This document shows, in pieces, positions 22,135 through 23,083 of a stretch of 64,000 nt of DNA. The stretch covers positions 1 to 64,000 of the forward strand of contig NZ_FQYQ01000009.1 of the NCBI RefSeq assembly GCF_900141825.1, written 5' to 3'. The stretch's first letter is position 1. The number at the start of each line of letters is the position of its first letter. The notes beneath the pieces are model-generated. The model was not told the origin of the DNA and searched no databases. It worked only from the letters and a program-made list of their open reading frames with translations. A program made the position numbers and the translations under genes. The stretch comes from Pseudobutyrivibrio xylanivorans DSM 14809. Its GTDB lineage: Bacteria; Bacillota; Clostridia; Lachnospirales; Lachnospiraceae.

Positions 22135-22258
22135 ATTTTCACTCCTGCTTGCTACAGCATATCAGCCCGGTCGCGGCGTCAATGATTCCCTTCGGCGCTT
22201 CGCGTTATTGACTCCTCGCCCTTGTGCTGATATGAGGTAATCAAGCAGGGGTGAAAAT
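22135..22258. repeat. long nested palindrome, element A
   Basis: Three nested stems are visible. The outer arm at 22135-22151 pairs with 22242-22258 (17 bp, one wobble). CATATCAGC (22158-22166) pairs with GCTGATATG (22226-22234). GTCAAT (22178-22183) pairs with ATTGAC (22207-22212). Inner sequence is GC-richer than its surroundings. Related elements sit at 38656-38798 and 49425-49544; A and the latter share GGTAATCAAGC before the closing arm and a following GTGGC/GCCAC hairpin. Not a CDS. Confidence 0.8.
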
Positions 22259-22693
22259 GGGGCTGTGGCAAGGCCACATTTGTCACTATCCATCCCATAA
22301 CAACAAAAGTGGGATTTGGATGCATTTTAGAAAAAGTGTTACTTTACGGGTGAAAGATTCAATTTGCGGTAGTAGTTTTTGAATAAATTAATACTACCTA
22401 TATTGATATTTGTTCTTAAGGTAGTAAAAATTTACTACCTGTATTCATTTCCTTATTACAGGTAGTAGAAAATTCCACCAAATTTACTACCTTTTCAAAT
22501 TAGTAAGCCACAGGTAGTAGTTTTTGAATAAATTAATACTACCTATTTAGATATTTCCTCGTCCGGTAGTAAAAATTTACTACCTGCATTCATTTCCTTA
22601 TTACAGGTAGTAGAAAATTTCACCAAATTTACTACCTTTTCAAGTTTGTATGTCTCAGGTAGTAAATGCAATGGGCCTTGCCACAGTCCCATT
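22256..22693. repeat. 20-bp inverted repeat bounding the GGTAGTA array
   Basis: AATGGGGCTGTGGCAAGGCC (22256-22275) and its complement GGCCTTGCCACAGTCCCATT (22674-22693) match at 19 of 20 positions. They enclose the whole 145-bp tandem array plus about 90 bp of unique sequence. A T-rich stretch follows the right copy, so the right arm could act as a terminator if transcribed. The left copy itself holds a small GTGGC/GCCAC hairpin. Confidence 0.8.
22368..22664. repeat. array 1: alternating GGTAGTA / TACTACC sites in a 145-bp tandem repeat
   Basis: GGTAGTA starts at 22368, 22420, 22461, 22513, 22565, 22606 and 22658. Its reverse complement TACTACC starts at 22392, 22433, 22485, 22537, 22578 and 22630. 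Orientation alternates without exception. The block repeats with a 145-bp period (22368, 22513, 22658), two full copies about nine-tenths identical plus the first site of a third. The middle pair is a near-perfect palindrome with 10-bp arms (22419-22440). Neighbouring sites can also pair the other way (TACTACCTGTA with TACAGGTAGTA). The array is AT-rich and non-coding. Confidence 0.9.
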
Positions 22694-22716: not shown

Positions 22717-22796
22717 TATCTGCCAAAAGAGGCTCTGTCAAGGGGCGGCGGAGTCGAGCCGTCAGGCATTCCCTTGACAGGGACTCTTGGCAGATA
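22717..22796. repeat. long palindrome, element B
   Basis: An arm of about 28 bp at 22717-22744 is inverted at 22771-22796 with few mismatches: TATCTGCCAA/TTGGCAGATA outside and CTGTCAAGGG/CCCTTGACAG inside. A CGGC...GCCG mini-stem sits in the loop. The style is that of element A, but the sequence differs. Confidence 0.8.
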
Positions 22797-23083
22797 AAAT
22801 AAGCAAAGTTCAAAGACAAAATAAAGGTCTAGCCAAGAAAATAACAAAGGAAAAAGCAAAGGAAAAAAGCAAAGGAAAATAAAAAAGGAAAATAACAAAG
22901 ATTTTCGACACAAAGTAAAGAGGACGCCGGCGAAGGGACCAAAAGGCATCCTTGTAAAGCAAGGAACTTTTGAGTCCTAGTAAGCGAAGCTTACATTCCG
23001 CCAAGGACACATAAATAAAAAAATTTATATAAAGTAAAGAGGACGCCGGCGGGGCGTCCTCTTCAAAAAGGGAGAATAATGTT
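22797..23083. repeat. purine-rich low-complexity region with duplicated GC-rich motif
   Basis: From 22800 to 22910 the plus strand is built of loose GCAAAGGAAAA units. A 21-bp segment at 22912-22932 (AAAGTAAAG followed by AGGACGCCGGCG) recurs exactly at 23031-23051. The second copy forms a hairpin GAGGACGCC/GGCGTCCTC (23039-23061). Smaller hairpins are CCTTG/CAAGG near 22950 and GTAAGC/GCTTAC near 22980. No convincing gene is visible; reading frames here are accidental. Confidence 0.55.

Follow-up and report, generated by a model that had tools for sequence, protein, structure and literature searches.

In partition and iteron arrays such as sopC of the F plasmid, proteins bind rows of short inverted words that have a fixed period, and pneumococcal BOX elements and miniature inverted-repeat transposable elements (MITEs) are intergenic repeats of modular build, in which palindromic parts accompany a core that varies. 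The closest described counterpart of the element studied here is the pairing of repetitive extragenic palindromic (REP) sequences with REP-associated tyrosine transposases (RAYTs), whose defining points are an enzyme flanked by the repeats, co-evolution of the two, and a correlation between rayt presence and REP abundance (PMC2817692). Here, an array of alternating 7-bp words, GGTAGTA and TACTACC, was analysed in a 64,000-nt stretch of Pseudobutyrivibrio xylanivorans DSM 14809 (contig NZ_FQYQ01000009.1, positions 1 to 64,000; this whole stretch is called the window). The source organism is a rumen bacterium. The array is probably a solo member of a system that joins nuclease-like genes to cognate arrays, resembling REP-RAYT in its working without being REP-RAYT.

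Organization of the array

The initial annotation of the window described thirteen GGTAGTA/TACTACC words in strict alternation at positions 22368-22664, and all thirteen are exact. The whole window holds 16 such words, versus 4.6 ± 2.1 (maximum 10) in 100 whole-window shuffles. The repeat unit, a point not made in that annotation, is a dyad of two inverted words whose starts lie 28 bp apart. In particular, the word at 22368, the first of the thirteen, pairs with a degenerate word at 22340, TACTTTA, which gives seven dyads in total: dyad 1 (22340-22374) joins this degenerate left half to GGTAGTA, and dyads 2 to 7 (22392-22426, 22433-22467, 22485-22519, 22537-22571, 22578-22612 and 22630-22664) have the form TACTACC-N21-GGTAGTA. 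The dyads follow TACTAYCT-N19-AGRTAGTA, and their starts advance by 52, 41, 52, 52, 41 and 52 bp, steps that are near whole helical turns. A tandem duplication with a 145-bp period (52 + 52 + 41, three dyads per period) spans 22368-22657; of the three blocks proposed at 22368, 22513 and 22658, two are copies with 90% identity (22368-22512 and 22513-22657), and the supposed third consists of the first word only.

Linkage to a nuclease-like gene family

In the same genome (G000), a gene that encodes a 262-residue PD-(D/E)XK-like protein (contig C41, positions 141699-142484) is immediately preceded by an array with the window's word, and in several species a gene of about 262 residues adjoins the array at the comEC locus. 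The family is PD-(D/E)XK-like and its members are predicted nucleases. In 22 paralogs, the residues E159, P189-D190 and E205-H206 are invariant (E / PD / E-H), which agrees with the PD-(D/E)XK motif except for the usual lysine: where these nucleases generally carry E-x-K, H206 here adjoins E205. The C-terminal half matches the C-terminus of PDC-S68 in PADLOC (E = 1.5e-26), whose models span about 1,200 positions, and shows weak similarity to families of phage endonucleases and resolvases. No Pfam family was found within E = 0.001 for the 22 members (best E = 0.0049, in one member), no NCBIfam family within E = 1, and a sequence search of the PDB gave one match at chance level. A poor structure model (predicted local distance difference test score, pLDDT, of 61.6) begins with a beta-beta-beta-alpha N-terminal part, and the order of its C-terminal elements fits the PD-(D/E)XK core; its best Foldseek matches include DrdV, MunI, FAN1 and Bax1, among unrelated chains (best E = 0.017).

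In Lachnospiraceae, most family members carry an array upstream. Arrays were counted when they had at least four dyads, loci with less than 250 bp of upstream DNA were excluded, and each locus was shuffled 10 times. By this count, upstream arrays occur at 56 of 68 Pseudobutyrivibrio loci (downstream, 5 of 67) and at 20 of 25 loci in other Lachnospiraceae genera (downstream, 0 of 25). A class-wide search (28 loci, L262 of the own genome among them) found them at 9 of 10 Lachnospiraceae loci, one of which is in the own genome, and at 7 of 18 others (downstream, 2 of 26). Shuffled upstream DNA never reached four dyads; three of 201 control windows did, two of them being parts of TACTGCC arrays and one a GTTAAGT array of the same architecture. 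The arrays are mostly directly 5′ of the start codon, with the last dyad mostly starting 40-120 bp before it, and the largest has 12 dyads (L153).

The words differ between paralogs. De novo dyad scans of their flanks returned TACTAYC, TACTGCC, ACACGAA, TACGTCT, TGCATCC, TACGGGT, TACAGTG, CTACGGT and others; a paralog about 9.6 kb past the end of the window (C23:73617-74402) has an upstream array with the word TACGGAA/TACGTAA (L173). Leaving out pairs at 99.5% identity or above, the word is shared in 45 of 49 nuclease pairs of 70-99.5% identity. Partial correlations between word and nuclease similarity are 0.083 for the N-terminal part given the C-terminal part (8 of 200 permutations as high) and 0.020 for the converse (48 of 200).

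The family occurs in 51 of 150 Lachnospiraceae genomes (a few through the C-terminal part only) and in 21 of 291 Clostridia genomes, the own genome being included in both counts. Within the genus, 28 of 29 genomes have members at E ≤ 1e-8, with up to 11 matches each among the matches listed. Further, one 4-kb phage record carries a distant relative, with no array in the 1.1 kb upstream of it; five plasmid records have partial family matches, four of them annotated as AAA-ATPase; and one partial relative was found on the viral contigs. A phage or plasmid origin was considered and rejected.

Distribution and conservation of the arrays

The initial annotation would have been refuted, leaving a single chance duplication, had related genomes held no second copy and the paired words no compensatory changes. 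Further copies do occur, both in the own genome and in other Pseudobutyrivibrio genomes. In the own genome (3.42 Mb, 57 contigs), a DNA search gave 12 matches and the word-pair pattern is found at 12 places. One of these is a single dyad on contig C18 and was excluded from the array count, and TACTACC-type arrays stand at 11 places (about ten loci; two at contig ends have one flank in common), including the window copy (L001). In these copies, GGTAGTA follows TACTACC at 28 bp with few exceptions, and the next TACTACC comes after 24 or 13 bp in most cases. Across the genus, a three-word pattern occurs in 13 of 29 genomes, and its reversed control gave one match, in G405. Allowing at most one mismatch, the dyad pattern occurs 9-61 times in those 13 genomes and 0-1 times in the other 16 (reversed control, 0-3). 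In a Lachnospiraceae sample, two of 397 genomes have the three-word pattern, both Pseudobutyrivibrio, and a degenerate form also gives two of 397. Among the array-bearing named records are P. ruminis CF1b and AD2017, Pseudobutyrivibrio sp. YE44 and several metagenome-assembled genomes (MAGs).

A pattern scan of GTDB genomes returned 36 stretches, 20 of which are Pseudobutyrivibrio records. The other 16, from Saccharibacteria, Tannerellaceae/Parabacteroides, Chamaesiphon, Bacilli, Lachnospira and Nitrospirae, were set aside together with three viral contigs (L094-L096) because their spacing or copy number differed. The Saccharibacteria MAGs (L059, L085 and L093) have GGTACTACC repeats right after an apparent tRNA gene, in another layout. 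The Tannerellaceae/Parabacteroides stretches (L062, L063, L071, L076, L080, L081, L086, L087 and L090) have a short GGTAGTA(15)TACTACC(29) repeat at several places, which is perhaps another dispersed palindromic family.

Profile searches of the stretches surrounding the arrays found no family member for the window array or for most others, the comEC arrays being the exception. Among the matches listed, a nuclease with the TACTAYC word occurs in 10 of the 13 array-bearing genomes of the genus and in none of the 16 others. Solo arrays exist for the words TGCATCC and GTTAAGT as well. For example, a GTTAAGT/ACTTAAC array in G400 (L127:2548-2913) has steps of 51, 61, 52, 61, 50 and 53 bp and no family member in its stretch; that word is also found upstream of a nuclease-type gene in G398 (L204). 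In G399, a solo array of about 20 dyads with mostly 52-bp steps (L138; C1:218944-220018) drifts from TACTAYC to TACTGCC, and L137 of G398 shows the same mix.

Solo arrays are kept at orthologous places across species, and they sit between convergent, co-directional and divergent genes alike. Two protein clusters, of eight and four members, recur at non-orthologous array loci, mostly not adjoining the array. In nine of nine comparisons of orthologous arrays (six solo, three nuclease-linked), the words differ less than the spacers, as counted with a mask of exact words in either sequence, which favours words somewhat. At the mfd array pair, 8 of 105 word positions changed versus 134 of 242 spacer positions, with this pair having diverged until its spacers are close to random; at a MerR-type locus the changes are 4 of 84 and 69 of 215. 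The earlier judgement that the array is not a CRISPR (clustered regularly interspaced short palindromic repeats) holds: CRISPR and other guide arrays have long constant repeats with unique spacers, whereas the constant part here consists of 7-10-bp words only and spacers of orthologous arrays can be aligned with each other; no search for Cas genes was made.

A site on DNA or a fold in RNA

The initial annotation offered two functions for the array, evenly spaced sites for a DNA-binding dimer and an RNA that switches between two folds. The logo of 220 distinct dyads at 28-bp spacing (identical units were merged into one, here and in the pairing counts) reads YTACTAYCTR, an A/T centre and the mirror image, and the 50 dyads at 29-bp spacing agree with it. 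Of the former, 98% have A or T at the centre, and of the latter, 90% have A/T at both central positions. Across upstream arrays of differing words, dyad-to-dyad distances cluster at 31-32, 42-43, 51-54, 61-65, 72-74, 84-86 and 93-96 bp and, more loosely, at 102-108 bp, and a few lie at 26, 49, 50 and 127 bp. With arrays of identical word and spacings collapsed, and distances of 130 bp or more left out, the phase at 10.5 bp has a resultant length R of 0.84 (216 distances, 50 arrays). Without the 50-54 bp class, R is 0.75 (n = 86, phase -0.2, maximum near 10.6), and the family and class loci alone give 0.82 for 39 distances. Because distances in one array are not independent, the Rayleigh p values are indicative only. 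Such a phase across arrays suggests proteins that sit along the same side of the DNA duplex. The proposed dimer sites are thus supported by the helical phase, by the A/T dyad centre, and by the presence of the same word upstream of a nuclease-type gene in this genome.

The paired words were checked for covariation with shuffles within genomes or loci, and no RNA covariation was found inside dyads. In particular, word position (5,29) pairs in 190 of 220 dyads (expected 187.2 ± 2.1), which is chance, and the position beside the words (8,26) pairs in 125 of 220 (expected 138.0 ± 3.7), 3.5 standard deviations (sd) below chance. In the alternative pairing between dyads, one position pairs in 168 of 198 cases (expected 162.5 ± 2.4), 2.3 sd above chance, and another in 111 of 198 (expected 120.0 ± 3.6), 2.5 sd below; with unstratified shuffles, one inner position of this pairing pairs in 108 of 198 (expected 82.6), above chance. 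A search of the window array against Rfam gave nothing at gathering scores. Its single-strand fold is stable (z = -9.8), a stability that any inverted-repeat array would give. The switch between two folds is supported neither by the pair statistics in dyads nor by the helical phasing, and was rejected on these grounds; the small excess between dyads stands.

The frame around the window array

A 20-bp inverted repeat encloses the window array, as first described; the left arm (22256-22275, plus strand) pairs with the right arm (22674-22693, minus strand) at 19 of 20 positions. The frame further comprises cruciform-forming palindromes on the left at about 22138-22258 (inverted repeat 22153-22166/22226-22239) and on the right at 22717-22796, where two inverted repeats were found. 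Terminal inverted repeats, by which MITEs are recognized, are present for the window frame and absent from unframed arrays. In the own genome, the frame motifs (cruciforms and inverted ends) occur in the window and in eight other stretches (L028-L035, two of them perhaps one locus), and were not found in L036 or in the C41 stretch (L037). Outside it, they occur in CF1b (L088) and, partly, in G398 (L134); most fetched arrays from other species have no such motifs.

The window array lies downstream of mecA. The 3′ side of mecA was surveyed in 25 genomes with more than 1 kb of sequence there (one partly masked; four more were too short), and two of the 25 have an array at this site, the own genome and that of a sister species (G416). 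Their frames are alike, with 134 of 145 aligned positions identical on the left and 144 of 159 on the right, versus 126 of 289 in the interior. The own frame contains TACTACC dyads and a decayed dyad of the TGCATCC type, and the G416 frame contains TGCATCC dyads. The decayed dyad (22284-22326) is read as a remnant of a replaced array; its left end lines up with the leading TGCATCC dyad inside the corresponding frame of G416. In G416, a nuclease-type locus (L162) has TGCATCC dyads upstream; the best TACTACC-type nuclease match among the matches listed is a 67-residue C-terminal piece with 97% identity (C21:408320-408520), and the pattern searches of the genus found no TACTAYC array there. Since the frame is shared and the arrays differ, the array of this one genome pair behaves as an exchangeable cassette within its frame, apparently matched to the resident nuclease-type gene.

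The same region shows further features. In G401, the mecA 3′ region holds a nuclease-family member itself (L272, E = 1.3e-47) where the two genomes above have framed arrays, and in G418 a partial family member begins at the end of the stretch (L285, E = 8.8e-9). Just right of the window frame, at 22837-22900, is a purine-rich 13-bp tandem repeat, GAAAATAACAAAG, in five copies, which is mostly absent from the G416 element. An exact 21-bp direct repeat, AAAGTAAAGAGGACGCCGGCG, at 22912-22932 and 23031-23051 surrounds a 98-bp stretch; G416 has one copy of it and no 98-bp stretch, indicating a local duplication, insertion or deletion. A terminator-like hairpin on the minus strand, GAGGACGCC, lies at 23035-23065.

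Interpretation and alternatives

Shared words, phasing and linkage lead us to infer protein-DNA binding; that the system also regulates, cuts or moves DNA would be a further step. In the proposed mechanism, the nuclease-type protein would bind its own dyads cooperatively, in a row along a single side of the helix, with the variable N-terminal part perhaps making the contact, a placing that the weak correlation between word and nuclease similarity makes tentative. The upstream array would repress or tune its own gene, with autoregulation probable. Solo arrays would serve as dispersed docking rows, kept or spread by the nuclease as a sequence population, as REP doublets forming hairpins (REPINs) are by RAYT, and framed copies would be non-autonomous elements that borrow the docking sites.

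Several observations weigh against this account. No array of at least four dyads stands at 11 of 18 testable non-Lachnospiraceae loci, 12 of 68 loci of the genus and 5 of 25 loci of other genera; an earlier count with laxer length limits gave 20 of 26 for other genera, and one of 20 shuffles of L233, a doubtful array, reached four dyads. Below 70% nuclease identity, word sharing is flat at 33-39%, which is background, and the Spearman correlations of word with nuclease similarity are 0.10 (N-terminal) and 0.07 (C-terminal). The periodogram of the family and class loci is broad and does not sharply single out 10.5 bp. Three of the 13 array-bearing genomes (G402, G410 and G420) have no comEC-clade nuclease among the matches listed, and in G399 and G398 the solo arrays mix TACTGCC with TACTATC, the nuclease array there being TACTATC. 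Finally, the structure model is poor, and it has no Foldseek match at E = 0.001.

Four other explanations were weighed against the nuclease and cognate-array system. The arrays could be operators of a host regulator, with the nuclease-like protein repurposed for DNA binding, the upstream array autoregulatory and the solo arrays controlling their neighbours. The placing of the last dyad before the start codon and the persistence of solo arrays at orthologous places fit such operators, which nevertheless appear unlikely: the catalytic-type residues are invariant in the 22 paralogs, many paralogs with differing words would be odd for a regulator, solo arrays also lie between convergent and co-directional genes, and the only proteins to recur at non-orthologous loci are the two clusters, mostly at a distance from the array. 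Alternatively, the arrays could act as a DNA sponge in an addiction arrangement, restraining a harmful nuclease, with solo arrays selected as extra sinks. The many dyads per array (up to the 12 of L153), their place at the nuclease's own promoter position and the slow change of words in solo arrays are consistent with a sponge, yet loss seems tolerated in G416, where the nuclease remnant noted above is accompanied by no TACTAYC array, and we regard a sponge as distinctly unlikely.

A pure MITE, a palindromic transposon mobilized by an unrelated transposase and with the words as incidental filling, would explain the frame motifs of the window, L028-L035, CF1b and, in part, G398. It is improbable, as most fetched arrays of other species lack these motifs, the words are kept while the spacers diverge, and the word equals that of a nuclease-type gene's array. 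Least credible is an RNA element, either a transcribed row of hairpins switching between two pairings or an RNA like a type III antitoxin placed before a nuclease toxin. The strong inverted repeats and the stable fold speak for it, as do the excess at one word position between dyads, the unstratified count at the inner position, and the likeness of repeats upstream of a nuclease-type gene to toxI-toxN. The spacing steps are those of DNA helical turns, the dyad centre is nearly confined to A/T, pairing inside dyads is at or below chance, Rfam gave no match, and none of the 22 members has a ToxN-type Pfam match up to E = 0.05, all of which makes an RNA element very improbable indeed. A type III toxin-antitoxin system was rejected on the missing covariation inside dyads, the helical phasing and the missing ToxN-type match.

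Beyond the solo array of a nuclease system, a wider proposition is possible and is advanced tentatively: Lachnospiraceae and some other Clostridia may hold a large, undescribed class of nucleases with sequence specificity, each of which docks cooperatively on a helically phased array of its own, with DNA specificity diversifying between paralogs. Small mobile frames would swap arrays as cassettes to ride the resident nuclease, and the whole would be a second, independent REP-RAYT lifestyle on a restriction-enzyme-type fold. Overall, an odd repeat is now linked to an unnamed nuclease-like family, most Lachnospiraceae members of which gain a predicted target word, and a code from protein to DNA word becomes directly testable. 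Searches of the open-licence PMC literature found no recognised description of such a nuclease-array pair.

Comparison with known systems

The family shares with PD-(D/E)XK nucleases (restriction enzymes, resolvases and the C-terminus of PDC-S68) the invariant E...PD...E residues and, with PDC-S68, the match reported above; it differs in having no Pfam or NCBIfam entry at the thresholds given and in the DNA array upstream of most Lachnospiraceae members. Unlike partition and iteron arrays, the arrays here are chromosomal, several words occur per genome, and the linked gene is nuclease-like. Unlike BOX elements and MITEs, their core is an exchangeable row of words common to nuclease-type genes.

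The likeness to REP sequences, including bacterial interspersed mosaic elements (BIMEs), and to RAYT (TnpA-REP) is closer. In both systems, palindromic words lie between genes in alternating orientation, the enzyme gene adjoins its cognate repeats, cognate solo repeats stand elsewhere, and the words differ with the enzyme (PMC2817692, PMC8049555). However, RAYTs are tyrosine transposases related to IS200/IS605, whereas the protein here is PD-(D/E)XK-like, and Y1_Tnp is absent among the nine weak Pfam families matched by the 22 members at E up to 0.05. RAYT genes have repeats on either side, whereas a wide dyad here stands in phased rows that are mostly upstream only, and genomes have 0-61 dyads of the TACTAYC word versus more than 100 REPs. 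These arrays offer a parallel to REP-RAYT for asking how populations of sequences persist in bacterial genomes.
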